From the NCBI RefSeq assembly GCF_000769075.1, contig NZ_JRFC01000014.1:458296-522295 (forward strand): a stretch of DNA of 64,000 nt, in the 5' to 3' direction. Below the pieces are notes generated by a model that worked only from the letters and a program-made list of their open reading frames with translations, was not told the origin of the DNA and did no database searches. The position numbers and the translations under genes were made by a program. The stretch comes from Porphyromonas sp. COT-290 OH3588. GTDB lineage: Bacteria; Bacteroidota; Bacteroidia; Bacteroidales; Porphyromonadaceae. Shown one piece after another: positions 33,568 to 50,359 of this stretch (position 1 is the first letter of the stretch; each line of letters opens with the position of its first letter).

Positions 33568-33573
33568 TTGTTC

Positions 33574-33597
33574 TTACTTTTTGGATGTTAGTGGTGG
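33574..33597 (-). promoter_or_regulatory. Element leader motif before the topoisomerase gene
   Basis: Minus strand reads ccaccactaacatccaaaaa then gtaa, ending 6 nt before the ATG. Confidence 0.6.
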
Positions 33598-33601
33598 CGG
33601 A

Positions 33602-34996
33602 TTACATTTTCATTCCCTTGGAACGCTTCTTCTCTTCTTCCTTCTGTTCCTGCTGGGCGGTAGGTTCTGTCTGCCCCTGTTTGAGTGGCTCTTTCACATG
33701 CTTGGTAGCCTCGTTGGTCTTGCCTTCGGAATTGACGGCGACTTGCGTGCGGGAAGCATTGTCTGGAGTAACTTCTTTGGCTTGGGATTTGTCGGGATTC
33801 CATTTGAGGAAGTCGAACTTGTTCTTCTCGAAGTTCGGACGTACATAGGCATTGAAAGGCTCTCCCTTCTTGTCGATAAGCCCGGTCATATAGACCGTCT
33901 GACCTGCTTTGAGCTTCGCTTGCTCTTCGGGAGAGATGTCACGTCCCAACATCTTCTTGGGGACACGCAGTTCTTTCTGCTCCGTTTGTTCCTGTCCTTC
34001 GGGAGCTTGTCTTTGGCGTTGTCCTTGCTTGGGAGAGCCGAAACGAAATTCAATAGACCGCTTGTCGGCATTGAATTGAAGGTTGGCATTGAAATGCTTT
34101 CCCGTTTTGGAGGTCATGCCCTCCACATAGATGCTTCTGCCTTCCGACAACTCCTTTTTCTGCTCATCGCTCAGCTTCACGCCCTTGATTTCATCGGGGA
34201 TGCGTACCCGGTCGGCACTCAGGGCGATGATATCGTTCGTCAGGCGGTCGATGCTCACGAAACTGCGGGTTGGCTCATCTTTGCCGGGGAAGGTCAGCTC
34301 CACGGTACGACCGAGGTTGCCCGTTTCTCTGAGGGCTTTCTTGTCCTCGTCGGTGAAGGTATGCCCGAAGAACTCACGCTCCAATTGAGGTTCCTTACGG
34401 ATGGCGTGGACAACGGGGATAAACGTACCGTCTCCGGAGGCTTTCAGAGAAAGACGGGCATCGGTGTAAAGGGAGACTTCTCCGATTTTGATTGCGATGG
34501 GAATAAGCGGAGTTTTGCGGTATTGAAGTAGGTCATCAAGATGCTTGCCCTTTTCGAGACTCTCACGGCTTACACCCATCTGCTCGAACTGCTCCCACTT
34601 CACCTTGTCGGGGTCAATGCCTTGAAAGAACTGCTTCTGCTCTCCTGTATAGTCCGAAGGATTGACACGGGCAGAGTCCAGCATCTCTTTATTGGAGGGG
34701 ACTTCCGGAGCTTTGAGCATCTCCGAAAGTACGCGGGCACTGGCAACGGCACTCTCAAAGGGAACCTTGAAGAAAGTCAGCGGTGTGGGGTGCTTGAACT
34801 GCCGCATGAAGTTGGAAAGGAAGTTCTCCAGCGCATTGCTGTGCTTGTCGAACTTCAGGAAGCTCTGTTCATGCTCGGCGGTGGGCGGTACGGTTTTCAG
34901 TCCACCTTTTTCATCTGCTCCGGCTACGGCTCGGAGGTTCTCGTTCTTCTGATCCTTGACCAAAAGGATTTCTTGGTCCTTGATTTTTTCGTCCAT
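33602..34996 (-). CDS. DUF4099/DUF3945 domain protein
   Basis: A 464-residue cytoplasmic protein, acidic at the N-terminus and low-complexity with Gln, Glu and Lys at the C-terminus (TAQQEQKEEEKKRSKGMKM). It contains repeats of one module: GHTFTDEDKKALRETG, GVKLSDEQKKELSEGRSIYVEG...SKTGKHFNANLQF and RDISPEEQAKLKAGQTVYMTG...DKKGEPFNAYVRP. The same module forms the tail of the topoisomerase encoded 34 nt downstream, so the two proteins probably act together. Common in Bacteroidetes conjugative elements, function unknown. It heads the four-gene minus-strand block. Confidence 0.85.
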   Translation of the reverse strand: MDEKIKDQEILLVKDQKNENLRAVAGADEKGGLKTVPPTAEHEQSFLKFDKHSNALENFLSNFMRQFKHPTPLTFFKVPFESAVASARVLSEMLKAPEVPSNKEMLDSARVNPSDYTGEQKQFFQGIDPDKVKWEQFEQMGVSRESLEKGKHLDDLLQYRKTPLIPIAIKIGEVSLYTDARLSLKASGDGTFIPVVHAIRKEPQLEREFFGHTFTDEDKKALRETGNLGRTVELTFPGKDEPTRSFVSIDRLTNDIIALSADRVRIPDEIKGVKLSDEQKKELSEGRSIYVEGMTSKTGKHFNANLQFNADKRSIEFRFGSPKQGQRQRQAPEGQEQTEQKELRVPKKMLGRDISPEEQAKLKAGQTVYMTGLIDKKGEPFNAYVRPNFEKNKFDFLKWNPDKSQAKEVTPDNASRTQVAVNSEGKTNEATKHVKEPLKQGQTEPTAQQEQKEEEKKRSKGMKM

Positions 34997-35077
34997 ATTA
35001 CAATGTATTTAATGACACCAACAGCGGTGCATGGGCAAAAGTAAATCAAAGAAACAGTGTATGTTAGAGGGTTGAGA

Positions 35078-35107
35078 TAACTGCGTACTTGTGGCGTCGA
35101 TATGGAT
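35078..35107. repeat. Dispersed 22-bp repeat, inverted perfect copy
   Basis: Bases 35078-35099 (taactgcgtacttgtggc followed by gtcg) are the exact reverse complement of 54847-54868 and 58400-58421. It lies in the divergent region between the DUF3945-type gene and tetR; the flank gatatggat is shared with the copy at 24486. Confidence 0.9.
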
Positions 35108-35184
35108 AGAAGTGGCTCCTTACACTGTGTGTGGGCAAAACTATAGCATCACGAAGAACCGACAAAAATCACTATTTTTAGGTA

Positions 35185-35215
35185 TTGTCTATGCAAGGAA
35201 ATATTAAGAACTTTG
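35185..35215 (+). promoter_or_regulatory. Candidate promoter of the tetR gene
   Basis: TTG (35185-35187), 20 nt, then GAACTTTG (35208-35215), one mismatch from TAnnTTTG. The tetR ATG is 31 nt further on. Confidence 0.5.
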
Positions 35216-35245
35216 CAACTAAATTGAGACAGTGTATATCGATCT

Positions 35246-35935
35246 ATGCAAACGCCAAAGGATTATACACGCAAGTTATTGCTAAAAACAGCTCGGGAAG
35301 CCTTTCTCCAAAAAGGATACAAGGCTGTGTCTATGCGTGAAATTTCCAAACTATCGGGTGTTGGTCTGAGCAATATATACAATTACTATCCCTGTAAAGA
35401 TGATTTGCTGGCTGTTGTCCTACATCCGCTTTTTGAGGCGATGAACGGCATGCTGGACAATCATAACCGGAACGAAAGTCTTTCCCTTGAAATTTTCACC
35501 TCTGAGGAGTATCATCGTAAATCCATGCAGGAGGTGATGGGCATTATAACCCGTTATCGCAAAGAGTTTAAGTTGCTGTTTCTCGACACACAAGATTCCC
35601 GACTCAAAGACTATTGGGAGCGGTGGATTGGAAAAAGCACTGCAATCGGCATGGAATATCTGGAGAGAATGAAAGAACTCTATCCGGATTTACGCACCCA
35701 GATTTCTCCATTCTTTATGCATTTCACTTGTTCTTGGTGGATTAATATGATGAAAGAAGTGGTACTGCATGAAGAACTCTCCCAAGAGGAAATAGAATGT
35801 TTTATTGGTGAGTATATCCACTTTAGCACGGGAGGATGGAAAAAGCTCATGAATGTGGAATGTAACAGAGAAAAGAAAATGGTTGGAAGTAAGACTTCCT
35901 CCTATTCCAGTAGAATAAAAACAAACAGTATATGA
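35246..35935 (+). CDS. TetR/AcrR-family transcriptional regulator
   Basis: A 229-residue repressor. The N-terminal HTH spans about 8-55: KLLLKTAREAFLQKGYKAVSMREISKLSGVGLSNIYNYYPCKDDLLAVVL. The helical ligand-binding half holds EEYHRKSMQEVMGIITRYRKEFKLLFL and ends in a basic tail. It lies upstream of and co-directional with the RND-ABC-TonB operon that starts at 36332, separated by a stem-loop terminator, so it most likely controls that operon and itself. The ligand is unknown. TetR family membership does not imply tetracycline resistance. Confidence 0.93.
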   Translation: MQTPKDYTRKLLLKTAREAFLQKGYKAVSMREISKLSGVGLSNIYNYYPCKDDLLAVVLHPLFEAMNGMLDNHNRNESLSLEIFTSEEYHRKSMQEVMGIITRYRKEFKLLFLDTQDSRLKDYWERWIGKSTAIGMEYLERMKELYPDLRTQISPFFMHFTCSWWINMMKEVVLHEELSQEEIECFIGEYIHFSTGGWKKLMNVECNREKKMVGSKTSSYSSRIKTNSI

Positions 35936-36180
35936 GTGTCACTAATATTATTAACAATGAAGAATTAACTCTTGTACAGGGAGTAGGTGGACTTTTCCTT
36001 TGTGAGGAATCTTGGATTACGCAAAATCGGAGAAACACCTATTGTAAAGATATTTCGGATAAAGAGATGATTACAACGAAAGACGAAAATAACGGTACTG
36101 AATGTACTCAGACAGAATTATGGGACTTACCTTAACAATCAAAAGTATGAAACGGGATATTTCAATAACGTATTCCATAG

Positions 36181-36216
36181 AGCGAGTCGCCCACTTAGGG
36201 CGGCTCGCTTTGTTTT
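36181..36216 (+). terminator. Terminator between tetR and the cargo operon
   Basis: A 12-bp stem with one G-U pair (agcgagtcgccc at 36181-36192, gggcggctcgct at 36198-36209) followed by ttgttttt. It marks the end of the tetR transcript, so the operon at 36332 probably has its own promoter between here and its start. Confidence 0.8.
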
Positions 36217-36331
36217 TGAACAGAACAGACTTTTGTTCGTTTTTGAGCCAACAATATCGAAGCGATTATCAGAAGTTGAAACGCTTTTATCCGCCCTCAA
36301 TGAATGAAACAACTTACAAACAGCAAATGAT

Positions 36332-38701
36332 ATGAAAATAGAAAGAATCAATGATTGGTTTGCTCGTCGGGGCAAATGGATGGTACAAAGACGATGGCTG
36401 GTACTAAGCTTATCTATCCTCGTCTTTGCCATAGGATTTACAGGGTTAAGATACTTCAAGGTGAGTGCTTCGTGGGAAGACTACTTTCTCGAAGACGATC
36501 CGATGCTTGTTAAGACAGAAGAGTTCAAGGATATATTCGGAAATGACAATTTCGCAGCGGTACTGACCCGATGCGACAATTTGTTTACGAAAGAGAATTT
36601 GGAACTTATCCGTGAACTCACCAACGAGATGATGGACAGCCTTTCGTATGCCGACAAAATCACGTCGCTCACCGACATCGAGTTTATGATGGGTGGAGAA
36701 GAAGGCATTGACATCGAACAGATTGTACCGGACACTATCCCATCAGATCCGGCGAAACTGGAGGAGATACGCCACAAGGCTTACCTGAAACCTCACGTTG
36801 CAGAGCGGCTTGTTTCCAAAGACGGGACACTCTCGTGGATTATACTCAAACTGCGCACTTTCCCAGAAGACTCAGTGTGGAACAAGGGGAAGAATGCCGT
36901 TGCTCCTGAGGTGTTGACGGGTAACGAGCTGGAGCATATCATCACCAAGGACAAATACCAAAAGCTCCATCCCAAGGGAACGGGACTGCCCTATGTTACC
37001 GCCATGAAAATGAAATGGATAAATAAGGAAATGCCCCGTGTGCTGGGTATCGCCACCCTAATCTCCATACTTATCCTGCTATTGGTAACGCGCTCCTTTA
37101 GAGGAGTGGTCGTGCCGCTTGTCACTGCCGTAGGCTCCATTGTCATTGTTTACGGTATGTTAGGTTACGTGGGTATGACAATAGATAGCGGCATGGTGAT
37201 GATTCCCATGCTCTTGACATTTGCCGTTTCCATTGCATACAACATCCACGTGTATTCCTATTTCAAACGCCAATTTCTCATACACGGAAAGAGGAAACAA
37301 GCGGTAGAAGAAACAGTGAGAGAAATGGGATGGCCGGTGCTGTTCAGCGCACTCACCACCTTTGCCGCCTTGCTTTCCTTCCTTGCCATACCAATGCAAC
37401 CCATGCGTTTTATTGGTATAGCGACTTCTTCATGCGTGATGCTGGCGTTCTTTATAGCCATTACATTGATGCCTGTGCTCCTTAGTTTTGGTAAGGACGG
37501 AAAACCACACCCCAAAGTGCAGGAAACAGGCGGACGATGGTTAGACCGAAAATTAGAGAAGATGGGGGTAGGGGTACTTAAACACGGCACTTTGATACTA
37601 TGGCTTACCGGAATGATCACTGTCGCTCTTGTCTATCAATTCACCAAAATAGAGACCGCCTTTGACGTGGAGCGAACCATGGGGCGAAAGATAGCCTATG
37701 TAAACAACCTCTTGGAAGTGGGCGAGAGTGAACTTGGGTCTGTCTATACCTATGATGTGATGATAGAACTGCCTGATAATGGATTGGCAAAATCGCCCGA
37801 AATCCTAGTGCGATTAGATTCCTTAGCACAACACGTAGACAGGTATAAATTAACCAAGCGCACAACCACGGTATTGAATATCCTCAAAGACCTGAACCAA
37901 ACCCTGCACGATGGGGATGCCTCTTATTATACTATCCCTCACAATCCTGAAGAGGTGGCACAGTTGCTACTCCTTTATGAAAATGCAGGAGGTAGTGAGG
38001 CAGAGTACTGGATCGATTATGATTATCGGCGCCTTCGCCTGATGGTCGAGATGAATTCATACGATTCCGGAGAAACAGAACGGGAGTTGAACGATATAGT
38101 TGCTCATGCCAAAAAGCTTTTCCCGAAAGCCACAGTCACTACCGTAGGCAGCATTCCACAGTTTACGGCGATGATGCAGTATGTAGCTCGCGGACAGATG
38201 GTTTCTTTCGCTATTTCACTTCTGATTATCGGCATCCTGATGATGCTTGTCTTCGGCAGTGTACGTATCGGACTTATCGGTTTGATACCCAACCTTACCC
38301 CGGCTTTGGTGGTAGGCGGTCTGATGGGATGGTTTGGCTATCCGTTGGATATGATGACCGCCACCATCATGCCGATGATTCTCGGATTGGCAGTAGATGA
38401 TACCATTCACTTTATCAACCACGGGCATTTGGAGTTCGACCGCCGGGGCAATTACCGGGAGGCTATCCTCCGTTCGTTCCGCACTATTGGAACACCGATT
38501 GTGCTGACAAGCATAGTGATCTGTACCAACTTTGCCGTCTATACTACTTCTGAAAGCCTTTCCTTTATACACATGGGGGTACTCTCCGTGGCAGGTATTG
38601 TATCGGCACTGCTTGCCGATCTCTGTGTCACTCCCATATTGTTCCAAAAGTTCAACCTGTTCGGTAAGGAGACAAATACAAACGAAACTCGGGTTGAGTG
38701 A
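36332..38701 (+). CDS. RND/MMPL-family exporter
   Basis: A 789-residue inner-membrane protein with the RND layout: first membrane helix about 20-40 (WLVLSLSILVFAIGFTGLRYF), a large periplasmic domain, helices from about 235 (VLGIATLISILILLLVTRSFRG) to 390, a second periplasmic loop, and a final helix cluster (about 620-775). The motif GLAVDDTIHFINH in the second half is typical of MMPL-type lipid or hydrophobe exporters. The protein is shorter than AcrB-type pumps and no membrane-fusion protein is encoded beside it. The LolA-like and barrel genes downstream instead point to carrier-mediated transfer of a lipophilic molecule. Confidence 0.9.
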   Translation: MKIERINDWFARRGKWMVQRRWLVLSLSILVFAIGFTGLRYFKVSASWEDYFLEDDPMLVKTEEFKDIFGNDNFAAVLTRCDNLFTKENLELIRELTNEMMDSLSYADKITSLTDIEFMMGGEEGIDIEQIVPDTIPSDPAKLEEIRHKAYLKPHVAERLVSKDGTLSWIILKLRTFPEDSVWNKGKNAVAPEVLTGNELEHIITKDKYQKLHPKGTGLPYVTAMKMKWINKEMPRVLGIATLISILILLLVTRSFRGVVVPLVTAVGSIVIVYGMLGYVGMTIDSGMVMIPMLLTFAVSIAYNIHVYSYFKRQFLIHGKRKQAVEETVREMGWPVLFSALTTFAALLSFLAIPMQPMRFIGIATSSCVMLAFFIAITLMPVLLSFGKDGKPHPKVQETGGRWLDRKLEKMGVGVLKHGTLILWLTGMITVALVYQFTKIETAFDVERTMGRKIAYVNNLLEVGESELGSVYTYDVMIELPDNGLAKSPEILVRLDSLAQHVDRYKLTKRTTTVLNILKDLNQTLHDGDASYYTIPHNPEEVAQLLLLYENAGGSEAEYWIDYDYRRLRLMVEMNSYDSGETERELNDIVAHAKKLFPKATVTTVGSIPQFTAMMQYVARGQMVSFAISLLIIGILMMLVFGSVRIGLIGLIPNLTPALVVGGLMGWFGYPLDMMTATIMPMILGLAVDDTIHFINHGHLEFDRRGNYREAILRSFRTIGTPIVLTSIVICTNFAVYTTSESLSFIHMGVLSVAGIVSALLADLCVTPILFQKFNLFGKETNTNETRVE

Positions 38702-38721
38702 ACAAACATAATTGAATACAA

Positions 38722-40500
38722 ATGAATACTACAAAAAAACAGAAGAAAACGCCCGTTTTGAAGCGGTTGCTGCCATACGCAGGCAAGAAGGGCTATATGC
38801 TTCCGCTGGCGATGATTTTTTCATCCCTATCGGGTATTATGGTGCTGATGCCTATGGTTTATATCCATAAGATTGTCAGCGGGATTATTTTGAGCAATAG
38901 TGTCGATGGAGTTTCCATACGGTACTATGCAATTCTGGCGGCGAGTTTTGCCGCAGCAGGAATGCTGCTCTATTTCTTTGCGCTAATGGTATCCCACCTC
39001 TTCGCTTTTGAGGTAGAGGCGAACATCATCAAGCTCAGTGTGAAGAAGATGATGGCGAAACCGTTGGGCTTTTTCGCCAACCGCGAAAGCGGTAACCTAC
39101 GCAAAACCATTGTCGATGGAGCGGGCGAGACCCACACCATGCTGGCGCATCAGCTGCCGGACTTTGCCATGACCATCGTTTCGCCCATCGTGCTGTTGGT
39201 ATTCTTCTTCCTTTTCGACTGGCGATTAGGCTTGGTGAGCCTGATACCGATGGTCATAAGCATGTTGTTGATGGCAACCATGAGCACCAAAAAGGGTATG
39301 AAGATGCGGGAAGAATACTACGAAGGACTTGCCAACCTTTCCGCCGAGTCGGTGGAGTACGTGCGCGGCATACCGGTCGTGAAAACCTTTGCCCAGAGCG
39401 TGGAGAGTTTCGAACGTTTCTATTCGCTCATCGTAAAGATGAAAGATTTCGTGGTACGGTGGAGCATGGGATTCAAAAACAAAATGTCGCTGTACGAGGC
39501 AATTTCAAGTTCCACAGCATTCTTCTTGGTACCCGTTGCCATCATGCTGTTCACCACAGGCGGCGACATGCGGCAGGTGCTGGGCAATTCTGTTATCTAT
39601 CTGTTGATAGGTCCAGTATTCGGTGTTTTTATGATGCGTAGTGCATCTATTCAAAACTTCATCTACTTGGCCGAGTTGGCATTGGATAAAATTGACGTCG
39701 CTTTGGATTACGACGACTTCGCTTATGGCAGAAAAACTGCAATTGAAGATGGTCTGGAGTTCAGGAACGTCTCGTTTTCATACGGGAAAGAAAAAGTGCT
39801 GGACAATGTGTCTTTCAAAGTGAACAAAGGAGAAACTGTTGCCTTGGTCGGTGTTTCTGGAGGCGGAAAAACCACCGTGGCACGTCTGGCAGCCCGTTTC
39901 TATGATGCCGATGAAGGCGAAATTTTAGTCGGAGGCACCAACATCAAGGAATATGAGAAAACGGCGCTGATGCGAAAGATCGCTTTTGTATTCCAAATGT
40001 CCAAGCTCTTTAAGATGAGCCTGCGCGAGAATTTATTGTTGGGTAATCCCAACGCCAGCAATGAGGAGATAGAGCAAGCTCTTGTCAGGGCCGGAGCCAA
40101 AGAGATTGTCGATAATTTAGAAAAGGGCTTGGATACGGTTTACGGTACCAAGGGGACCTATTTCTCAGGCGGTGAAGCCCAACGACTTTCCATTGCGAGA
40201 GCTTTCCTGAAGAACGCCGATTTTGTCATCCTTGACGAGGCGACCGCTTTTGCCGACCCCGAAAATGAGCATATTATTCAGGCTTCGTTCAGGGAACTGT
40301 CAAAGGACAAAACCACATTAATGATTGCCCATAGGCTCTCTTCCGTGGTTAATGCCGATAGAATCCTTGTGATGGAGAACGGCAAAATAGTGGAAAGCGG
40401 TACACATAACGAATTATTAACCCAAGGTGGTGCCTACAAAAAGCTGTGGAACGAATATCAAAAAGCTGCCAACTGGAAAATAGGAGGTAAAAATGAATAA
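38722..40500 (+). CDS. ABC transporter half-molecule, first of a pair
   Basis: A 592-residue fusion of six membrane helices (about 30-320) and a nucleotide-binding domain. Walker A GVSGGGKTT (about 377), signature FSGGEAQ (about 481), Walker B FVILDEA (about 502). The D-loop reads FADPENE where the partner has SLDVENE, a sign of an asymmetric heterodimer. It begins 20 nt after the RND gene and overlaps its partner by 8 nt. Sequence style is that of IrtA/YbtP-like exporters-turned-importers for iron-siderophores and of general lipid exporters; I cannot tell which. Confidence 0.9.
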   Translation: MNTTKKQKKTPVLKRLLPYAGKKGYMLPLAMIFSSLSGIMVLMPMVYIHKIVSGIILSNSVDGVSIRYYAILAASFAAAGMLLYFFALMVSHLFAFEVEANIIKLSVKKMMAKPLGFFANRESGNLRKTIVDGAGETHTMLAHQLPDFAMTIVSPIVLLVFFFLFDWRLGLVSLIPMVISMLLMATMSTKKGMKMREEYYEGLANLSAESVEYVRGIPVVKTFAQSVESFERFYSLIVKMKDFVVRWSMGFKNKMSLYEAISSSTAFFLVPVAIMLFTTGGDMRQVLGNSVIYLLIGPVFGVFMMRSASIQNFIYLAELALDKIDVALDYDDFAYGRKTAIEDGLEFRNVSFSYGKEKVLDNVSFKVNKGETVALVGVSGGGKTTVARLAARFYDADEGEILVGGTNIKEYEKTALMRKIAFVFQMSKLFKMSLRENLLLGNPNASNEEIEQALVRAGAKEIVDNLEKGLDTVYGTKGTYFSGGEAQRLSIARAFLKNADFVILDEATAFADPENEHIIQASFRELSKDKTTLMIAHRLSSVVNADRILVMENGKIVESGTHNELLTQGGAYKKLWNEYQKAANWKIGGKNE

Positions 40501-42217
40501 TTTCTTAAAGCAAAAATATGCCATGTCGGATCAGGGAGCGAAGAACTTGAAAAAATCTATCTTCTCGCACACGATCCTGAATCTGACCAAGATGTTTCCA
40601 CCCATCGTCGGATTTATGTTTCTGTTTCAGTATCTGGGCGGTCTGGAAGGCATTCCCGCACCGGCAGAACTAACTCTTGCCGACTATATTGTCATCATCG
40701 TAGTGATGCTGTTGGTGATGTTTATCGTGGCAAGGTGGGACTATGTGCGCCTTTACGACAATGTTTATAACGAGAGTGCCAACTCGCGCATCGACATAGC
40801 CAACCGCCTGAAGAAACTGCCACTTTCTTATTTCGGCAAGCGCGATGTGTCCGACCTTTCGGCAACCATGATGAGCGACTTGCAACTTTATGAACAGATA
40901 TTTTCGCACTCCGTACCGCATATCTATGCCACTTCCATTTCCACGATTATCGTTTCCATTATGATACTCGCCTACAATTGGCAGCTCGGATTGGCGGCAT
41001 TGTGGGTTATTCCCGTCTCGTTGCTGCTCTTTTCCCTTTCTAAAAGGAAACAACGGAAAACCATGGACGCATGCGTGAAAACCGGTCGCGAAGTGTTCGA
41101 CGATTTGCAAGAGAAAATAGACCAAATACAAGAAATCAAATCCTATAACCTGGAAGATCGGTCACTAAACGAGTTCTGCCACAAGCTGGACAGCAATACC
41201 CGTACAAAGATGAAAGGGGAGTTCTACGCCGGTATTGCCACGTCATTGGCAGGCATGTTGATGAAGCTCGGCATCGTCACGGTGGCGATTGTCGGCGCCA
41301 ATATGCTGATTGCCGGACAAATCAACATCCTCGTCTATATCGCCTATCTCATCCTTACGGCAAGCATCTACCTGCCTATCGAGGGAATCCTCACCTTTAT
41401 GGCGATGATCGTGGCGCTCGACGGCGTGGTGACGCGTATCAAAGAGATTAAAACCATGCCCGTTCAGGAAGGCAAACAGGAAATGAGTCCCAAGGATTAC
41501 AGCATTGATTTCGAAGACGTCGTGTTCGGCTACGAGGACCATACCGTCATCAACGGCGTGAGCTTCACCGCCAAGCAAGGAGAAGTTACCGCCTTGATCG
41601 GTCCTTCCGGAAGCGGCAAAACCACCCTCACCAAATTAGCAGCTCGTTTCTGGGATATTCAGCAGGGTAAGATACTGTTGGGTGGCGAGGACATCAGCCG
41701 GATAGACCCCGAAACGCTGCTGAAAAACTACGCCATTGTCTTTCAGGATGTGGTGCTGTTCAACACCAGCATAAAAGAGAATATCCGCGTAGGAAGAAAG
41801 GGAGCTACGGACGAGGAGGTGGCTCGCGTTGCCAAAATAGCCCGCTGCGATGAGTTTATCGACCGCATGCCCGAAGGCATGGACACCATTATCGGCGAAA
41901 ACGGCGAGCGGCTTTCCGGCGGCGAGCGCCAGTGCATCTCCATAGCAAGGGCCATACTGAAAGATGCTCCCATCATCCTGATGGACGAGGCCACCGCCTC
42001 GCTCGACGTGGAAAACGAAAACCTGATACAGGAGGCTTTGTCGGAGCTGATTAAAAACAAGACGGTCATTGTCATCGCCCATCGGATGCGTACTATTCGC
42101 GGAGCCGATAAAATAGTGCTGCTTAATCAAGGCAAGATTGAGGCTATGGGCACTGACGCAGAGTTGCAGGCACAATCAGCGACCTATCGGAAGATGCTTG
42201 AAAAGTCAATGGTATAA
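40493..42217 (+). CDS. ABC transporter half-molecule, second of a pair
   Basis: A 574-residue membrane-ATPase fusion. The membrane domain includes [19 protein letters not shown] and [25 protein letters not shown]. Walker [10 protein letters not shown] (about 371), signature LSGGERQ (about 473), Walker [17 protein letters not shown] (about 494) are all intact. It starts inside the end of the preceding half-transporter gene, so equimolar synthesis and heterodimer formation are likely. The following LolA-like gene starts 22 nt later. Confidence 0.9.
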
Positions 42218-42239
42218 AATCAACAACAAAATATCAATC

Positions 42240-43025
42240 ATGATGAAAAGAATTATTTTAACAAGTTTGGTGGTATTGGCTTTTGCCGCCACGGCAATGG
42301 CTCAGACGGGCAGAGAGATTGCCCAAAAAGTAAAAGACCGTCCCGATGGCGATACCCGTCAATCGGAATTGGTGATGAAACTGATTAATAAGCGCGGAGC
42401 AGTGCGCGAGCGCAAACTGATTTCTTATTCCATCGACGTGGGCAAAGGAAAGAAAGACCGCAAGAGCATTATGTTCTTCCAATACCCCGGTGACGTAAAA
42501 GGTACGGGGTTTCTCACGTGGGATTATGACAACCCCGACAAGGACGATGATAAATGGCTCTACCTGCCCGCCATGAAGAAAACCCGACGTATCAGCGGCT
42601 CGTCTGCTAAGCAAGATTACTTTATGGGCAGTGACTTTACCTATGATGATATGGGCAGTCGCAACGTGGATGAGGACACGCACAAACTGCTGGGTAAAGA
42701 AGAAATAGATGGGCATAAGTGTTGGAAATTGGAATCTACGCCCAAAGACAAACGCGAGATTTATTCCAAGAAAATAGCCTTCATACGCCAAGACTGTCTG
42801 ATAGCCGTCAAGGTGGAGTATTATGACAAAATGGGGAAGCTGCACCGCCGTCTTGAATTATCGGACATTGCCAAAGTAGCAGGATTCTGGGTTGCACAGA
42901 AGCTACACATGACAAATGTGCAGACAGAGCATCAAACGATTCTTGAAATTAAGAATCCCAAGTATGACCTTCCCATGGAGGAGACAAAATTCAATGTTAC
43001 CACTTTGGAGAAAGGTAGGTTCTGA
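42240..43025 (+). CDS. LolA-like outer membrane lipoprotein-sorting protein
   Basis: A 261-residue periplasmic protein. A signal peptide [22 protein letters not shown] precedes a mature LolA-like fold: [69 protein letters not shown], and [23 protein letters not shown]. The start at 42240 is chosen because it directly yields the signal peptide; an upstream in-frame ATG lies within the ABC gene. Proteins of this type are found next to MMPL exporters and DUF1302-like barrels in other phyla and are thought to ferry lipophilic cargo. The next gene shares its last base with this stop. Confidence 0.88.
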
Positions 43026-44284
43026 TGACAAACACAAGTAATCGTTCTATAAAGTTTTTGCTGCTGTTTCTCTCACTCTTGTCCCTACACGCCGCATGGG
43101 GACAGGAAGAAGGGGTTTCATCGTGGCAACTCAAAGGCTTTGTTGATACCTATCATGCCGCCCGTTCCGAGAAGCCGAACGACTTTATGTCTTCACGCAC
43201 CCGGGTAAAGGGTGAAATAGGGAAAAGTTTTGGCAGTTCGACGCTCTTTGTCTCGTTCAATGCCACCCACAATGCCTTGCTGAAGGAACGCACGGGGTTT
43301 GAACTGCGGGAGGCATATCTCGACCACAGAGAGGAGCACTGGGGCTTTCGCCTCGGTCGGCAACTGGTCATTTGGGGTGTGGCAGACGGAGTGCGCATTA
43401 CCGACTTGGTTTCTCCGATGGATATGACGGAGTTCTTGGCACAGGACTACGATGACATCCGTATGCCGGTCAATGCCCTGCGCTTCTTTGTCTTTAATGA
43501 GAAGATGAAGTTAGAGCTGCTTGCCGTACCGACCTTCGAGGGGTATAAGTTGCCGACCGATGCCGGAAATCCATGGAGCGTGCTGCCTAAAAATACCGTT
43601 CAGCCCCTTGTCTGGCACGAGGACGGAAGCCACCCAAAGTTCCGTTTTTCCAACATGGAATATGGAGGAAAACTTTGCTTTACCTTGCCGGGAGTGGATT
43701 TTTCCATTGCTGCCTTGCATACGTGGAACAAGATGCCTGTGATTACCTACCGATCTTCAGGTACCCACATGGCCGTATCTCCACGATATTACCGCATGGG
43801 ATTCTTCGGAGGAGATATATCCAAGCCGTTGGGGCAGTTTGTCCTACGTGGCGAAGCAGCATTCAATGTGGACAAGCATTTCAGCTACAAACCCGAGGCG
43901 GGAGCTATGGAGCAGAAGGGCTTCAACACGGTGAATTATCTCGTGGGCGTGGATTGGTATGCGCCTCATGAATGGATGGTGATGGCGCAGTTTTCTTCGG
44001 AAAGTATTCTGCGATATGAAAATCAAATAGCACAACCTCGTCATCAGTCACTCCTCACGCTCAATGTGTCTAAAAAACTGTTGGACAGCACATTGCAATT
44101 ATCCAACTTCACCTATTTCGACCTCAACCACAAGGGATGGTTCAGCCGCTTTACCTCCTCCTATGCGCTGAATGACCACATTCAACTATCGGTAGGTTAT
44201 GATTGGTTTGGAGGCAATGAGGGGATATTCGGTAGGTACAAAAACAATTCAGAAATATGGGCAAAGGCAAAATATAATTTTTAG
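43025..44284 (+). CDS. DUF1302-like outer-membrane beta-barrel protein
   Basis: A 419-residue protein with signal peptide (about 1-26, ending HAAWGQ) and a beta-strand-rich body: WQLKGFVDTYHAARSEKPNDFMSSRTRVKGEIG, GFRLGRQLVIWGVADGVRITDLVSPMDMTEF, and an aromatic C-terminal Phe (KAKYNF) typical of BAM substrates. The RLGRQ...WG.ADG...D..SP phrase matches the DUF1302-like family, which pairs with LolA-like (DUF1329) and MMPL proteins in Proteobacteria. It overlaps the preceding gene by one base and the TonB-receptor gene follows after 10 nt. Confidence 0.75.
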   Translation: MTNTSNRSIKFLLLFLSLLSLHAAWGQEEGVSSWQLKGFVDTYHAARSEKPNDFMSSRTRVKGEIGKSFGSSTLFVSFNATHNALLKERTGFELREAYLDHREEHWGFRLGRQLVIWGVADGVRITDLVSPMDMTEFLAQDYDDIRMPVNALRFFVFNEKMKLELLAVPTFEGYKLPTDAGNPWSVLPKNTVQPLVWHEDGSHPKFRFSNMEYGGKLCFTLPGVDFSIAALHTWNKMPVITYRSSGTHMAVSPRYYRMGFFGGDISKPLGQFVLRGEAAFNVDKHFSYKPEAGAMEQKGFNTVNYLVGVDWYAPHEWMVMAQFSSESILRYENQIAQPRHQSLLTLNVSKKLLDSTLQLSNFTYFDLNHKGWFSRFTSSYALNDHIQLSVGYDWFGGNEGIFGRYKNNSEIWAKAKYNF

Positions 44285-44294
44285 CAATAAAACA

Positions 44295-46637
44295 ATGAAA
44301 CAGAAAGTACTCTATCTTTTCTTATCACTAATGCTCATGAGCCTTAGTGTCTCCGCTCAAACAGGGGGAGGACGGATTGCGGGCATAGTTATCGACGATT
44401 CAGGCGAAGAACCGCTACCCGGTGCAACCATCTTTATAGAGGAACTGAAAAAGGGCGTTGCAGCAAATGGGCATGGGGAGTTCTCTTTTTCTGACATCCC
44501 CCCAGCCACCTATACGCTTACCGTGAAATTTATGGGTTACCACGCGCAAACCAGTAAGATCACAGTAGGTAAGGAGAGAGGCAAGAAAATCATCATCCGC
44601 ATGAAAGCCCAATCCCAATCGCTTGAAGAGGTTATTGTGATGGGCAAGAGCGAAGCCCGTAAGATACGGGAGCAGGCAATGCCTATATCCGTAATCAGCA
44701 TGAGTCAGATACAAGGAACGGTCAACAATGTGCAGGATGTTCTGGCAAAGACTGCCGGTATCACCGTGCGGACGATGGGTGGTGTGGGCAGTGCTTCTCG
44801 TATTTCGGTACGTGGGTTGGAAGGAAAACGTATTGGACTTTTCATTGACGGGCATCCGATGAACGATAATTCCGATTTTATCGACATCAATGATATTCCG
44901 GTGGAAATGATTGATCGCATTGAGATATATAAAGGTGTTGTTCCCGCCAAGTTCGGAGGATCTGCCGTGGGAGGAGCCGTAAACATTGTCGTCAAAGAGT
45001 ATCCTCCCAAGTATTTGGACGTGAATTATTCTTATGGAAGTTTCAATACCCACAAAGCATCTGTGGTGAGCAAGATGAACATTGCTTCAAAAGGTATCGA
45101 GTTCGGGTTAGGAGGTTTTTATAACCATTCCGACAATAACTACAAGATGAAGTCTCCCTTCCAGGAGGGGCTTACGATAACCCGAGATCACGACAAGTTT
45201 AAGAAGACGGTTATCGGCGGCAGCTTTAAGGCTCGGAAGTGGTGGTTTGATTTGGTGGAATTTGAACCTGTCTTCATACATACCTATAAGGATATACAGG
45301 GGATAGAGTCAAATATTCAGTATGCCCACAGCCATTCCAACGCTTTTATTTTCGCCAATAAGATGGAGAAGGACAACTTTCTCTTGGAAGGGCTGGACTT
45401 GGATTGGCAACTGGGATATATTTACACCAACTATAATTTTGCCGATACCGCCTCTCATCGCACACATTGGGACGGAACGCATTATCCGGCGGCTTCCAAA
45501 TTTGGTGGCGAAATCGGCAAATGGGCTTCATTATTGACGAATGATAAGCACCAATTACAGCACAAATTGAATCTCAACTATCTTGTCAATGAAAACCATT
45601 CGGTCAACTTTAACTCTTTGCTGAAATATGCCCGTGCCAACCCCAAGGATGTAATAAAGGACAAGGTCATTGGCTACCGTACTGAATTTCCAAGCAATAT
45701 GCTCAACTGGGTGGCGGGATTGAACTACGACTATCGCTCTTCAGACGATAAGTTCCTCAATTCTGTCAATATCAAGTATTACCACTATTTGATGAAAACG
45801 CGGATGGCAAGTATTCTTACAAATTCAGCGGAAGATATAGATACTCGCAAGAATGATTTCGGCATCAGCAATGCGCTTCGTTACCGTATCACTCCCACCC
45901 TGATGGCAAAAGCGTCACTCGGGTATGATGTAAGGCTTCCATCGGAAGAAGAACTGCTGGGCGATGGATATGTAATAGCTCCTGCGGGCAATTTGATTCC
46001 TGAACGCAACACAAGTGTAAACGTGGGAATGATGTTTGACCTGACAGGAAAGTCTCCCAGCAACATGCAAGTAGAAGTAAATGGTTTTTACATGTATCTA
46101 CAGGACATGATTCGCTTTACGGGAGGCTTCTTGCAATCGCAGTATCAAAATTTTGGCGAGATGAGGACTCTTGGTGTGGAAGCAGAGGTGAAAGCCGATG
46201 TCACACGTTGGCTCTATGGTTACGTAAACGCGACCTATCAAGACCTGCGAGATATGCGTAGGTATGAACAAAACACCACCATTGCCAATCCGACGAAGGG
46301 CAGCCGTATGCCCAATATACCTTATCTGATGGCAAATGCAGGACTGGAGTTTCACAAGGAGAATCTATTCGGAGGCAGAGGAATGAACACGCGCATATTT
46401 ACCGATGCCTCATTCGTGGAAGAATACCTTTATGATTTCGAGCAAAGCCAGTTCCAGCAGCATCGCATACCGAGAACCTTCTCATGCAGTATGGGCTTTG
46501 AGCAGAGTTTCGGCAATGGACGCTACTTCATTATGGGGAAAATAAACAACCTGACCGATACGCAAATGATCAGCGAATTCAATCGCCCCTTGCCAGGACG
46601 TAGTTTCATCGTCAGATTCAGATATGTGTTCAAGTAA
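44295..46637 (+). CDS. TonB-dependent receptor (XusA-like)
   Basis: A 780-residue outer-membrane receptor. Signal peptide MKQKVLYLFLSLMLMSLSVSAQ, then a carboxypeptidase-regulatory-like domain (GRIAGIVIDDSGEEPLPGATIFIEELKKG), a TonB-box-like LEEVIVMG, the plug (VNNVQDVLAKTAGITVRTMGG...AVGGAVNIVVKEYPP) and a 22-strand-type barrel ending in the C-terminal Phe of RFRYVFK (penultimate). The ATG at 44295 gives a clean signal peptide. The DUF4374 lipoprotein gene follows by 35 nt, the same pairing as Bacteroides xusA-xusB for ferric-siderophore capture. Substrate is inferred, not shown. Confidence 0.9.
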   Translation: MKQKVLYLFLSLMLMSLSVSAQTGGGRIAGIVIDDSGEEPLPGATIFIEELKKGVAANGHGEFSFSDIPPATYTLTVKFMGYHAQTSKITVGKERGKKIIIRMKAQSQSLEEVIVMGKSEARKIREQAMPISVISMSQIQGTVNNVQDVLAKTAGITVRTMGGVGSASRISVRGLEGKRIGLFIDGHPMNDNSDFIDINDIPVEMIDRIEIYKGVVPAKFGGSAVGGAVNIVVKEYPPKYLDVNYSYGSFNTHKASVVSKMNIASKGIEFGLGGFYNHSDNNYKMKSPFQEGLTITRDHDKFKKTVIGGSFKARKWWFDLVEFEPVFIHTYKDIQGIESNIQYAHSHSNAFIFANKMEKDNFLLEGLDLDWQLGYIYTNYNFADTASHRTHWDGTHYPAASKFGGEIGKWASLLTNDKHQLQHKLNLNYLVNENHSVNFNSLLKYARANPKDVIKDKVIGYRTEFPSNMLNWVAGLNYDYRSSDDKFLNSVNIKYYHYLMKTRMASILTNSAEDIDTRKNDFGISNALRYRITPTLMAKASLGYDVRLPSEEELLGDGYVIAPAGNLIPERNTSVNVGMMFDLTGKSPSNMQVEVNGFYMYLQDMIRFTGGFLQSQYQNFGEMRTLGVEAEVKADVTRWLYGYVNATYQDLRDMRRYEQNTTIANPTKGSRMPNIPYLMANAGLEFHKENLFGGRGMNTRIFTDASFVEEYLYDFEQSQFQQHRIPRTFSCSMGFEQSFGNGRYFIMGKINNLTDTQMISEFNRPLPGRSFIVRFRYVFK

Positions 46638-46672
46638 TCAATCATCTAATAATCAATTAAACAAAAAAAGCA

Positions 46673-47911
46673 ATGAAAAAGAAAATGATTTTCGCAGCAG
46701 CCATGTTTGCTGCACTGTGTCTCAACTCATGTGACAAGAACGATCCGGACACTCCCATAGCAGGAGGTACGGGAAATGTACTGCTACTGACAGCCTTGCC
46801 CAATGCTACGGGCATGGATGGAACAGTCTATATGCAACTCATTGACGAGCCCAAGTTGGGCACGACGATGGCTGTTGACAATAAAAATGGCATAAATGTT
46901 CCCTTTGGCAGTTCTTACCCCATGGTAATAGGTGATGAGGTCTATGTCTTCCCAAGCTATCACATGACTATGGACAAGAATGAACTGATCAAGTATCGCC
47001 GCACAAACAGTGGTTTGCAGAAAGTGGGCAGTATGCCATTGCCTGCCAACAACAGTGCCAACAGCCTCGTCAAGCTGTCTCCGACAAAGGCGTATCTGTC
47101 GCTTGCCGGATTGGGGGTAATCTACATTTTCAATCCCGAGACAATGCAGAAGACGGGAGAGATAGACCTGACATCTTTGGGCATACAGGACAATAATCCC
47201 GACATAGGAATTATGATAGAACGTGACGGATACGTGTTTGCAGGTCTAAGTCAGATGGTGGGAGGCTGGACAAGCCCTAAAGATTACAAACAAGCAGATG
47301 TAGCCGTCATTGACTCGAAGACGGACAAGCTGGTCAAGATGATTTCGGAGAAAGCCAGTGGTTTCTCTCAAGCTACACGTCCCATTGACCCGAAGTCTTT
47401 GTTCATGGATGAAAAAGGGGATATATACATCTCTTGTCTCGGCAATTTCGGAATGGTAGCAGGACATAAGGCTGGCATACTGCGAATCAAAAAGGGCGAA
47501 ACGGATTTTGACCCCACATATCATTGGACGATAACCGGAGCAACTATTGAAAGAGAAGAGAAAACGGCCGGATTTGCGGCTTCTATCTGTTATATAGCCA
47601 GCGGCAAAGCCTACGGATACATTGATGTTCCGGGCTATTACAAGCCTGGCGAAACAGGGCATGCCGCTATCGCAAGCAGAGCCGTTGTATTTGACCTGTA
47701 CAATCAGAAGATGACGAAAATTGAAGGACTGGAATTGTCCAACGGCTATGGTGTATTGGTCTCTAAGTATAAAGACGGCTTGGCCATCTGCAATGCTTCA
47801 GCAACGACCAAAGGAATCTATTATCTCAATCCTCGGACATCTGAGGTCAATCCAACTCCTATGATAACCACTGTAGGAAACCCTATGGCAATAGAATGGA
47901 TTGGCAAGTAA
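46673..47911 (+). CDS. DUF4374 lipoprotein (XusB-like)
   Basis: A 412-residue lipoprotein with lipobox ALCLNSC (lipidated cysteine at 20) and a repetitive beta-propeller-like body: FPSYHMTMDKNELIKYRRTNSGLQKVGSM, KAYLSLAGLGVIYIFNPETMQKTGEIDL, VAVIDSKTDKLVKMI. I assign it to DUF4374. Bacteroides XusB, as I recall it, is a surface lipoprotein of this kind that binds ferric enterobactin next to its TonB receptor. It is the last gene of the cargo operon, before a strong terminator. The PepSY-type third Xus gene is absent here. Confidence 0.8.
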   Translation: MKKKMIFAAAMFAALCLNSCDKNDPDTPIAGGTGNVLLLTALPNATGMDGTVYMQLIDEPKLGTTMAVDNKNGINVPFGSSYPMVIGDEVYVFPSYHMTMDKNELIKYRRTNSGLQKVGSMPLPANNSANSLVKLSPTKAYLSLAGLGVIYIFNPETMQKTGEIDLTSLGIQDNNPDIGIMIERDGYVFAGLSQMVGGWTSPKDYKQADVAVIDSKTDKLVKMISEKASGFSQATRPIDPKSLFMDEKGDIYISCLGNFGMVAGHKAGILRIKKGETDFDPTYHWTITGATIEREEKTAGFAASICYIASGKAYGYIDVPGYYKPGETGHAAIASRAVVFDLYNQKMTKIEGLELSNGYGVLVSKYKDGLAICNASATTKGIYYLNPRTSEVNPTPMITTVGNPMAIEWIGK

Positions 47912-47927
47912 ATCATAGCCTATAACC

Positions 47928-47981
47928 AAGAGGGCGAAGACGGGAGCAGAACCCTCTGCTTTCTTCTTTGCCCTCTTTTTT
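47928..47981 (+). terminator. Terminator of the cargo operon
   Basis: Stem aagagggc (47928-47935) with gccctctt (47970-47977), followed by tttt. An inner gcaga/tctgc pairing extends the structure. It closes the operon 17 nt after the DUF4374 stop. Confidence 0.85.
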
Positions 47982-48125
47982 ATCCTCTAGTTCAAGTTAG
48001 AACCGATACGGATACTACAAATCTCCATCATTTGCCTCTGTATGTGGAGAACCTGCAATCGAACAAAAAGATGAACAATTGAAATACAAAGAGGAAAACG
48101 AGATTATAATGAATAAATTATCAAT

Positions 48126-48732
48126 ATGAAACGACTTATACAAACAACTGCATTTGAACAACTAATTTCAAATGATTTGACAGCAATCCAAATGAGGGCT
48201 GTTTGTGATAGTTTTATCAAGGATGTAATAAAACTAAGCGAAACGGAAAGAAATCCACAATCTTTATTTCGGGCTCTTTGTTACACTCGATTCCATTTAC
48301 AAACAATCTACGAAAAGAGCGGATTAACAACGGAGATGGGGAAAAAATGTATCAGAGCTGCTATACGTCATTGACAAAGAGTTAGAATTATGGTATATGC
48401 GAATGCAAGGAGTTTTATCTTTATCACCTCCGAGTTTGCAATCCAATTCCTTCTGTATCCATTGGACAGGTAAAGCAACCGACTTGGTCGAACTACTCTA
48501 TGCACTCGATACCTGTGACTGTATTAACGATGGTGAAATCGGTATAGAAGAATTGGCAGATACCTTTTCTGAAATCTTTGGTGTAGAAATCAAGAACTGC
48601 TACAACGTCTATATGAACATGAAACGCCGCAAGGATGACAGCCGAACCTACTTTCTTGATGAACTCCGAGAGAAGCTGAACAAGCGTATGGTGGAGAGCG
48701 ACCTGAAAGGCGGCAAGTTCAAGAAACGGTGA
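48126..48732 (+). pseudogene. rteC-like regulator, broken by a single-base frameshift
   Basis: Two adjacent frames together encode an RteC-like protein of about 203 residues. The first (48126-48374) ends ...YEKSGLTTEMGKKCIRAAIRH. The second frame is open upstream of its first ATG and reads GKNVSELLYVIDKELELWYMRMQG into FCIHWTGKATDLVELLYALDTC, the RteC signature domain. Removing one base from the run ggggaaaaaa (48338-48347) joins them into one uninterrupted frame. RteC activates the excision genes of CTnDOT, so loss or slippage here would affect mobility. Sequencing error cannot be excluded. No rteA or rteB is present in the window. Confidence 0.75.
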
Positions 48733-48810
48733 ATCAAAAGGAGGAACTCTCTCCCTCTCATTTGCCGATTACCTTAAGTTTACGGCAATTTTATTTGGAG
48801 AAACAGAGAG

Positions 48811-48885
48811 AATTGAGTATTTTTACATGCAGAATTGAGTAAAATACTCATCACAATTGAGTAAATCCATCATTAGATTTGAGCA
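48811..48885 (+). repeat. Four direct repeats at an exact 22-bp period before the ATPase gene
   Basis: aattgagta occurs at 48811, 48833 and 48855, and a 7-of-9 variant (atttgagca) at 48877, reaching the ATG at 48885. The 22-bp step equals about two helical turns, as expected for operator or iteron-type binding sites on one DNA face. Confidence 0.85.
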
Positions 48886-50096
48886 TGAACTATATTCGCA
48901 AACAATATCACACGCTGAAAGCACGCATTCAGGAGCCAAGGCGTTTTATGCAAGTATTGGCAGGTCCGAGACAAGTAGGCAAATCTACTCTCGTAGGGCA
49001 GGTGCTGCAGGACGTACCTATTCCATATTCGGTAGAAGTAGCAGATGCCGTCGATCCGAAAGACAGCGACTGGATACGCCGAGTGTGGGAAGGAGCACGA
49101 ACCACCATGACACTCCGTGGAGAGGCTGAACGCCTGCTTGTGATTGATGAAATCCAGAAGATTGACAATTGGAGCGAGGTGGTCAAGAGAGAATGGGACG
49201 AGGACACGCGCAAGCATGTCAATCTGAAGGTGGTACTGCTGGGCAGCAGCCGTCTGTTGCTCAAGAGAGGACTTACGGAGTCGTTGGCAGGGCGTTTTGA
49301 ACTTATTCGCCTCGGGCATTGGAGCTATCAGGAGATGCACGACGCTTTCGGAGTGACACTCGACGAGTACATCTACTTTGGCGGCTATCCCGGTGCAGCC
49401 CACATGATTGGTGACGAAAAGCGTTGGCGTAAGTATATCAAGGATTCGTTGGTGGCTCCCGCCATCGAAAAGGATGTACTGATGACCTCCAACATCTACA
49501 AGCCTGCCCTTATGAAACAATTGTTTGAGTTAGGGTGCGGTTATTCTGCCGAAATACTTTCTCTGACAAAACTGATGGGACAACTGCAGGATGCCGGCAA
49601 CGTGACTACGTTGGCTTCGTATTTGGAGATACTCGACCAGTGTGCATTGCTGACGGGATTGCAAAAGTATGCCAATGATGAGGCCCGAAAGCGTGGCTCC
49701 ATTCCCAAATACCAAGTGTACAACAACGCCTTGCTGACGGCATATAAAGGCAGGTCGTTCCTTATGGACAGAACGGACACGACGCTTTGGGGGCGATGGG
49801 TGGAGAGTGCGGTAGGTGCTCATTTGCTGGGCATGGCAGAGGAGGCAGACTATCAAGTGTATTACTGGCGAGAGCCTGCAAGGAACAAGGCAGATAAGGA
49901 CAAAGAGGTGGATTTCATCATCGTAAACGATGGTGAGGTGACAGCTATTGAGGTGAAAAGCGGTCGTCGCGGGATGAACTCAGGTCTTCCTGTCTTTGTG
50001 GAGGCATTCCATCCCAAGAAATCTTTTGTCGTGGGCTCGGGAGGCGTTTCGTTGGAAGACTTTCTGAGGTGTGACATAGAGGTATTGTTGGGATGA
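48885..50096 (+). CDS. AAA ATPase with DUF4143 domain
   Basis: A 403-residue cytoplasmic ATPase: Walker A LAGPRQVGKSTLV (about 26-38), Walker B LLVIDEIQKI, sensor LLGSSRLLL, then DUF4143 with GGYPGAAHMIGDEKRWRKYIKDS and a C-terminal nuclease-like fold region KDKEVDFIIVNDGEVTAIEVKSG. Family proteins are widespread in Bacteroidetes and archaea, with poorly known roles; the IEVK motif resembles restriction-endonuclease-like domains. The ATG at 48885 is preferred over the TTG two codons earlier. It stands alone between rteC and the mob region, with a repeat array upstream and a hairpin terminator after it. Confidence 0.88.
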   Translation: MNYIRKQYHTLKARIQEPRRFMQVLAGPRQVGKSTLVGQVLQDVPIPYSVEVADAVDPKDSDWIRRVWEGARTTMTLRGEAERLLVIDEIQKIDNWSEVVKREWDEDTRKHVNLKVVLLGSSRLLLKRGLTESLAGRFELIRLGHWSYQEMHDAFGVTLDEYIYFGGYPGAAHMIGDEKRWRKYIKDSLVAPAIEKDVLMTSNIYKPALMKQLFELGCGYSAEILSLTKLMGQLQDAGNVTTLASYLEILDQCALLTGLQKYANDEARKRGSIPKYQVYNNALLTAYKGRSFLMDRTDTTLWGRWVESAVGAHLLGMAEEADYQVYYWREPARNKADKDKEVDFIIVNDGEVTAIEVKSGRRGMNSGLPVFVEAFHPKKSFVVGSGGVSLEDFLRCDIEVLLG

Positions 50097-50222
50097 TGTT
50101 ATACTTCTCTGCAGGATATAACTAAAAGACAATAAGCCTCTCAGGCGCGTCGAAAGACAGCATACTTGAGGGGCGTTCTTCATTTATAAGGGAGCCGAAA
50201 TGAAGAGAACACAAGATGCAGT

Positions 50223-50268
50223 AAATCAAAAGGGAGGTATTCCGGTTTCGGAGTACCTCCCTTGATTT
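50223..50268. terminator. Hairpin between the ATPase gene and the zinc-finger gene
   Basis: aaatcaaaagggaggta (50223-50239) pairs with tacctcccttgattt (50254-50268) apart from a 2-nt bulge. The AT-rich flanks make it usable in both directions between convergent genes. Confidence 0.7.
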
Positions 50269-50359
50269 AGTTTCTGCAACTATTGGTCGCAGAAACTCTT
50301 CGTGTCTCGCAAAAGAAGATTAGAAAAATCCAACCCTTAGTTGGAGAATTTGCATCCTC

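Follow-up and report, generated by a model that had tools for sequence, protein, structure and literature searches.

We analysed a window of 64,000 nucleotides from Porphyromonas sp. COT-290 OH3588 (contig NZ_JRFC01000014.1, positions 458,296 to 522,295; the source genome is of 2.29 Mb in 48 contigs), and in particular an operon in which an RND exporter, two ABC half-transporters, a LolA-like carrier and an outer-membrane barrel are followed by a receptor and a lipoprotein that resemble XusA and XusB. A preliminary description, made from the sequence alone, had claimed seven consecutive same-strand genes with gaps of at most 35 nt and some overlaps. Open reading frame (ORF) calls and Pfam searches confirmed this, with the seven genes tightly packed at 36332-47911, downstream of tetR. 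The genes of the locus are the following:

35246..35935, plus strand: TetR/AcrR-type regulator, 229 amino acids (aa) (Pfam TetR_N, 42.3 bits)
35932..36135, plus strand: ORF of 67 aa whose start overlaps the tetR stop (ATGA), possibly a small protein or leader peptide
36332..38701, plus strand: MMPL/HAE3-type RND exporter, 789 aa (Pfam MMPL, 144.8 bits)
38722..40500, plus strand: ABC half-transporter 1, 592 aa (Pfam ABC_membrane and ABC_tran)
40493..42217, plus strand: ABC half-transporter 2, 574 aa (Pfam)
about 42243..43025, plus strand: LolA-like periplasmic carrier of the LolA3 type, 260 aa (Pfam LolA_like, 221.6 bits)
43025..44284, plus strand: DUF1302 outer-membrane barrel, 419 aa (Pfam DUF1302, 33.2 bits vs. 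a cut-off of 23.2)
about 44289..46637, plus strand: TonB-dependent receptor, XusA-like, 782 aa (Pfam plug, barrel and CarboxypepD_reg-like)
46673..47911, plus strand: surface lipoprotein of the XusB-like beta-propeller family, 412 aa (Pfam DUF5074)

The MMPL gene is separated by 20 nt from the first ABC gene, which overlaps the second; gaps of 25, 4 and 35 nt precede the LolA-like, receptor and lipoprotein genes, respectively, and the LolA-like and DUF1302 genes overlap by 1 nt. The family assignments of the preliminary description were borne out by Pfam for all genes but the last, for which it had named DUF4374. The lipoprotein misses that family (20.1 bits vs. a cut-off of 25) and passes DUF5074 (34.4 vs. 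27.2 bits), although its family profile does match XusB, as described below. The best NCBIfam match of the MMPL protein was HAE3, at 190.9 bits and thus under the cut-off of 351.9, and no Pfam family was matched by the 67-aa ORF.

Three signals flank the seven genes:

36177..36213, plus strand: terminator-like hairpin followed by a U-run in the tetR-MMPL gap (fold 36176-36222, -29 kcal/mol, z -7.75, 0 of 200 shuffles)
36218..36238, plus strand: 21-bp palindrome GAACA-N11-TGTTC, proposed TetR operator
47928..47977, plus strand: rho-independent terminator at the operon end (fold 47925-47985, -34.8 kcal/mol, z -7.36, equalled by 0 of 200 shuffles)

The strong terminator claimed at the end of the run was therefore found, its fold being better than those of all 200 shuffles. 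The claim of a single transcript behind TetR holds for the seven-gene run only: since a strong hairpin with a U-run lies between tetR and the MMPL gene, tetR is probably transcribed apart, and the seven genes would have their own promoter at about 36218-36332. Hairpins are present at the equivalent position in many relatives, although not in all. Homologs of the 67-aa ORF occupy the same position in L079, L088, L144/L080 and, as judged by eye, L219, and one precedes the receptor gene in L131. A scan for sigma-70 promoters gave 25 sites, as compared to 22.6 (standard deviation 4.9) expected by chance, and was not used. The possibility of two transcripts within the seven genes was dropped, given that the 28-nt operator pattern defined below, with up to one mismatch, matches the window only before the MMPL gene. 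In L080, L208 and L176 (P. levii and, apparently, its relatives) an additional small ORF, which is not present in the window, lies upstream of the receptor gene; judged by eye, it would encode a histone-like (HU) protein.

That the receptor and the lipoprotein form a Xus-like pair, as had been proposed, was supported by the search against solved structures. The closest solved relative of the receptor is 9gbc_A (E 4.9e-74 over residues 8-781), and 9gbc is the XusAB complex of Bacteroides thetaiotaomicron (PMC13142918). With the lipoprotein as a single sequence, BfXusB appeared only at E 0.037, while a profile of its family (17 members, in all of which Cys20 is invariant) matched BfXusB (9hqe) at 3.4e-15 and BtXusB at 1e-9. 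The sixth match of the same profile was 8p97 (5e-4), which we take to be BtuG; uptake of vitamin B12 was dropped as a reading, considering that this match ranks behind those to XusB. The lipoprotein, at 412 aa, is close in length to BfXusB (414 aa). The latter lacks the hook of BtXusB, and hook-less forms have been tied to hydroxamate siderophores (PMC13142918), so that the length may be taken as a weak hint at a ligand of this kind. With respect to XusABC of B. thetaiotaomicron (BT2063-65), the window operon shares a XusA-like receptor beside a XusB-like surface lipoprotein; moreover, XusABC is iron-repressed, as are operons related to that of the window in other species (PMC10434189). It differs in having a TetR regulator and no PepSY match, in a lipoprotein that falls in DUF5074 rather than DUF4374 and in the joining of the pair to two ABC halves and an RND-LolA-DUF1302 exporter.

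The proposed comparison of the ABC pair with IrtAB and YbtPQ was made on the best 60 of 283 and the best 60 of 300 matches to solved structures. Full-length eukaryotic transporters outscore half-size ones in these lists because both of their halves match. Among the matches listed, YbtPQ and IrtA are the best half-size solved relatives: the first ABC half scored 287 bits against 6p6i chain A (presumably YbtP), 284 against IrtA and 254 against Sav1866, and the second 277 bits against YbtQ, as compared to 255 for Sav1866. Each half combines a membrane and an ATPase domain, as in the heterodimeric half-transporters YbtPQ and IrtAB. IrtA reportedly carries a FAD-binding domain, whereas Pfam found no extra N-terminal domain in the halves of the window.

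For the MMPL protein all solved relatives, HpnN and MmpL4 included, are weak matches, and the profile search gave none for the DUF1302 barrel. The closest solved relative of the LolA-like protein is LolA3 of Porphyromonas gingivalis (9tp6, E 1.7e-132). This solved protein is encoded exactly by L094, where the genes are in the order TetR-MMPL-LolA3-DUF1302-ABC-ABC. P. gingivalis LolA3 is reported to bind LolB weakly (PMC13103446), and deletion of lolA3 in F. johnsoniae left gliding and amylase secretion unaffected (PMC11885536); for this reason, a role as the housekeeping LolA of the Lol pathway was dropped. The presence of MMPL/HAE3 (the latter under cut-off), LolA-like and DUF1302 genes in one operon recalls AmeABCD, a DUF1302-DUF1329-HAE3 set that supports tolerance to monoterpenes (PMC6394551). 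Both systems have a DUF1302 barrel, a LolA/DUF1329 protein and an HAE3 RND protein; unlike AmeABCD, the window operon shows no AmeC-type protein in its Pfam matches, and adds TetR, the ABC pair and the receptor pair.

The preliminary description had proposed that these genes form one unit and that its two parts should be found linked elsewhere. If distant matches are counted, 89 of the 295 genomes searched in the order and 46 of 100 relatives have the barrel, whereas only 10 of the 295 have the lipoprotein. Eighty named barrel loci were read, and they include several from close kin or from one and the same genome. Among the named loci, the barrels closest to that of the window come from metagenome-assembled genomes labelled Prevotella (94%), an uncultured Porphyromonas (93%), P. 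loveana (89%) and P. levii (87%). Most of the loci read have a trio of MMPL, LolA-like and DUF1302 genes, and the ABC pair is placed before, within or after this trio, depending on the locus; of the 80 named loci, 33 have at least two ABC halves and 44 have tetR. In nine of the 80 the receptor pair adjoins trio genes on the same strand: L207, L210 (P. levii), L217, L219 (Bacteroides faecis), L220, L224 (T. forsythia), L246, L281 and L283. L220 is identical in layout and identities to L219; in L224 the trio is split and the MMPL gene is cut at the locus edge; L281 and L283 have the pair first (TetR, receptor, lipoprotein, MMPL, LolA, DUF1302). All eight families also occur in L301 and L303, at 32-59% identity to the window, in the order receptor-lipoprotein-TetR-MMPL-LolA-DUF1302-ABC-ABC, with the final ABC gene cut at the locus edge. 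A separate, more diverged set (24-39% identity) of receptor, lipoprotein, AraC, DUF1302, MMPL and LolA was found in L138 and L145, both located on elements of the MobA/RteC type; these two loci were counted as one event because their trios are 96-97% identical to each other. The outcome that would have spoken against a single unit, two parts never linked in other genomes, was thus not obtained. The families recur together, while the order, whose conservation was also in question, is not constant.

For 38 receptors encoded beside a lipoprotein (10 of them trio-linked; two near-duplicate rows were dropped), the tree required six changes of label between trio-linked and not, all forced by well-supported branches. 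This result indicates that the association of receptor and trio was gained or lost several times. The pair also occurs by itself: in G301 a receptor 98% identical to that of the window is found with its lipoprotein and no trio alongside. Some versions of the operon begin with further genes. In L219 (B. faecis MAJ27) the first gene encodes a ZupT-type metal transporter (2243-3058; 363 bits, cut-off 252), between the operator and the MMPL gene. A related methyltransferase is encoded in P. levii, as the first gene of the operon, and in several solo receptor loci.

The palindrome before the MMPL gene, first spotted by eye in leaders of MMPL genes and of unlinked receptor genes, was surveyed with a strict pattern of 28 nt (GAACA-N11-TGTTC-NN-TTTTG). 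In the whole source genome this pattern has a single match, at the palindrome of 36218-36238. Eighteen genomes were then scanned, which had been chosen for holding such loci themselves or in close kin, and some of the loci scored had also served to define the pattern: 11 genomes gave one match each, as compared to none of 18 with a reversed-pattern control. Ten of the 11 matches lie before the cluster, namely 7 before the MMPL gene, 1 before the P. levii methyltransferase and 2 before the receptor pair. The last two have no neighbouring trio; in G059 the trio is elsewhere, with a looser match 69 nt before its MMPL gene too, and in G106 the order-wide search gave no barrel match. The eleventh (G298 C98) is away from the cluster and, on reading, apparently within a coding region. 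Of the 80 named loci, 33 have a relaxed form of the operator upstream of a cluster gene (0/80 for two control patterns); the same form precedes 5 of 490 unrelated ORFs and 3 of 244 other reference-family ORFs. It also preceded 10 of 28 receptor genes without a trio (control 1), but 0 of the 13 such genes from one set of loci, of the P. communis family. Where the trio is near, the operator stands directly before the receptor in 1 of 12 cases, the pair being mostly downstream in the same run. TetR homologs head trio operons as well as receptor-pair operons, and in a tree of 49 TetR proteins the two kinds are intermixed, with at least four forced changes, some of them on long branches. We therefore propose that the trio operon and unlinked receptor pairs have an operator in common, to which TetR may bind. 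The recurrent linkage together with the common type of regulator and operator supports the proposal that the genes form one unit; its gene content, linkage, operator and the homology of its parts all emerge from comparison of sequences.

The operon had also been placed on a conjugative element, and Pfam confirmed this. Around it are genes for a relaxase, a TraG-type coupling protein, a TraG P-loop ATPase, RteC, a topoisomerase, DUF3945, an integrase and a homologue of TraJ of CTnDOT, so that the element is CTnDOT-like. Its cargo could be delimited:

35117..48280, no strand assigned: cargo segment of the conjugative element, outside which the backbone matches L309 and within which the cargo differs

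The DNA of L309 (G452, P. communis family) matches the window at 32807-35116 and 48281-55006 with 81-86% identity, and carries, in place of the operon, an AraC regulator, XusB-like and XusA-like genes and a divergent ABC pair (AraC and ABC domains were assigned by Pfam on the L138/L145 homologs, and XusA-likeness by 36% identity to the window receptor). Position 35116, where the cargo begins on the left, is also such an edge in L033, L085, L309 and L312. Because L309 shares the backbone and carries another XusAB-like cassette, the site resembles an exchange slot for iron-type modules. In L085 (G309, 8199-10655) a truncated DUF3945 gene runs into a terminal fragment of lolA and an intact DUF1302 gene like that of the window, beside an AraC-type cassette; this is likely a remnant of an earlier cargo exchange. 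An AAA_14/DUF4143 ATPase gene lies directly 3' of RteC in the window (48879-50096) and is 95% conserved in L309. Megablast found no close copies on plasmids, and there was no pattern match in viral contigs; a protein search of plasmids returned a P. nigrescens operon (TetR-ABC-ABC-MMPL-LolA-DUF1302) near mobB.

Related operons have appeared in published expression data. In P. gingivalis, PG1175-81 is 13- to 136-fold up without iron; in Prevotella intermedia, operons composed of TetR, two ABC, MMPL, LolA-like and hypothetical genes are about 40- to 223-fold up, and a receptor-hypothetical-TetR operon is 129- to 289-fold up (PMC10434189). The last order is also that of L302, which has homologs of the window type, the likeness being one of gene order. 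Genes for tetR, LolA-like, hypothetical and MMPL proteins rank at the top, by P value, of the P. gingivalis genes under-expressed in excess hemin (PMC10470040), and PG1178-80 are up in an hmuS mutant (PMC13227078). The PG1175-81/PGN0947 region and the P. intermedia TetR-ABC-ABC-MMPL-LolA operons (PMC10434189) consist of the same families as the operon described here; they differ in having no receptor pair attached, and in the window the ABC pair is inserted between MMPL and LolA. The suggestion that the unit had not been described thus applies to the seven-gene combination, for which no description was found in the literature searched, and not to its parts, which are in print as iron-repressed loci (PMC10434189).

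Diverged XusAB-like pairs were also observed within nonribosomal peptide synthetase (NRPS) clusters, in B. pyogenes (G059 C1; L137/L286/L287) and in G314 C1 (L186/L288/L289). The B. pyogenes NRPS has 2056 aa, with two AMP-binding, two carrier, one condensation and one thioesterase domain by Pfam; the best match of its first AMP-binding part, below cut-off, is to fatty acyl-AMP ligases (FAAL). The clusters further contain a phosphopantetheinyl transferase, two saccharopine-dehydrogenase-like enzymes and methyltransferase-like genes, and that of B. pyogenes an ABC pair as well. They are candidate clusters for a lipopeptide metallophore and, given their position around the receptor pair, a lipopeptide ligand is suggested for that branch.

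Taken together, these observations are best accommodated by a mobile module for iron starvation, which would take up a ferric chelate and send its lipophilic carrier out again; we give this reading a probability of about 0.45. TetR would repress one promoter through the GAACA-N11-TGTTC palindrome. Once repression is lifted, the XusB-like lipoprotein and the XusA-like receptor would capture a ferric chelate and deliver it to the periplasm, from where the YbtPQ/IrtAB-like ABC pair would take either the whole chelate or only the iron through the inner membrane. Export of a lipophilic molecule, most likely the iron-free carrier, would then fall to MMPL, the LolA3-type protein and the DUF1302 barrel, and the net result would be import and recycling of the carrier. 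Of this scheme, the ligand, the binding of TetR, the direction of the ABC pair and the recycling are what we infer. Mycobacterium tuberculosis offers an analogy of function and not of membership, since there IrtAB imports siderophores and MmpL4/5 re-export them (PMC9042941). In both cases an ABC importer and an MMPL exporter would serve one lipophilic carrier, while the outer-membrane parts and the gene linkage set the window operon apart. The ZupT gene of B. faecis, the methyltransferase and the NRPS neighbours are hints that agree with this module. A bolder version, which we consider speculative and rather unlikely as it stands, has a self-transmissible element encode a complete machine for importing and recycling a lipophilic metallophore, perhaps a lipopeptide, with receptor cassettes that are exchanged in one slot; some Bacteroidales (B. 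pyogenes, G314) would make such a lipopeptide with FAAL-type NRPS clusters that include a XusAB-like pair.

Several results weigh against the import-and-recycling module. Most loci with a receptor pair have no trio, and an adjoining receptor pair was not shown in 71 of the 80 barrel loci. In the P. communis family (a set including B. pyogenes) there are 38 lipoprotein sites, and the window-type trio was present in 2 of the 20 loci fetched around them; five further sites gave one locus with the trio (L281), one with the diverged trio (L138) and three without (L131, L137, L139). Pfam revealed no PepSY (XusC-type) match among the eight proteins of the operon, and the margins of YbtPQ and IrtA over Sav1866, among the matches listed, are modest (23-33 bits). 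As for the operator, a search for the relaxed form gave no match upstream of the cluster genes of 47 of the 80 loci or of 18 of the 28 receptor genes without a trio, and in P. gingivalis and P. gulae the 260-nt leaders of tetR and of the MMPL gene contained no such palindrome. Its loosest form gave 51 matches, as compared to 29 for the control, in 1.67 Mb, and the signal is therefore one of position and not of number. Finally, P. gingivalis, which has the TetR-trio-ABC set, is a heme auxotroph reported not to use siderophores (PMC13227078).

This last point makes traffic of heme or porphyrin the chief rival, because P. gingivalis keeps the trio and the ABC pair with no known use of siderophores. 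Under iron limitation, iron would be stripped from heme, the trio would export the iron-free porphyrin and the receptor pair would import a heme-like or other ligand. The hemin list headed by the tetR, LolA-like, hypothetical and MMPL genes (PMC10470040) and the response of PG1178-80 in the hmuS mutant of this heme auxotroph (PMC13227078) speak for it; the nearest solved relatives of the pair, however, are XusA and XusB and not heme proteins, and a diverged pair of the same families sits in the NRPS clusters of B. pyogenes and G314, so that we regard this explanation as unlikely. We hold in equally low regard the possibility that the trio and the ABC pair expel lipophiles or toxins and are merely iron-regulated, the receptor pair being a co-regulated neighbour with a job of its own. 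The likeness of the trio to AmeABCD (PMC6394551) fits such efflux, and the trio is far commoner without a receptor pair than with it. TetR proteins, moreover, commonly control efflux. The common operator and the repeated fusion with Xus-like pairs point instead to a common pathway.

The genes might also be passengers, that is, separate iron-related cargo piled up in the insertion slot of the element with no joint function. Related elements do hold different iron-type cargo in this slot, and the pair found without a neighbouring trio in G301 fits as well. Yet the eight families recur in differing orders, also in loci (L281, L283, L301 and L303) without nearby matches to the conjugation genes of the window; the joints between genes are often shorter than 50 nt, and near the trio the receptor mostly has no operator of its own (1/12). 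Passengers are thus improbable, and import of a ferric chelate with recycling of its carrier is the explanation that we prefer.

In P. gingivalis and P. intermedia, few genes are repressed by iron as strongly as those of the MMPL-LolA3-DUF1302 operons, to which no role has been assigned in print; the authors of the expression study consider that these systems deserve more study (PMC10434189). The fusion with a Xus-like pair, which occurred more than once, and the common operator tie the trio operons to iron-chelate uptake. If this is true, iron piracy would move between Bacteroidota, together with an exporter, on conjugative elements.

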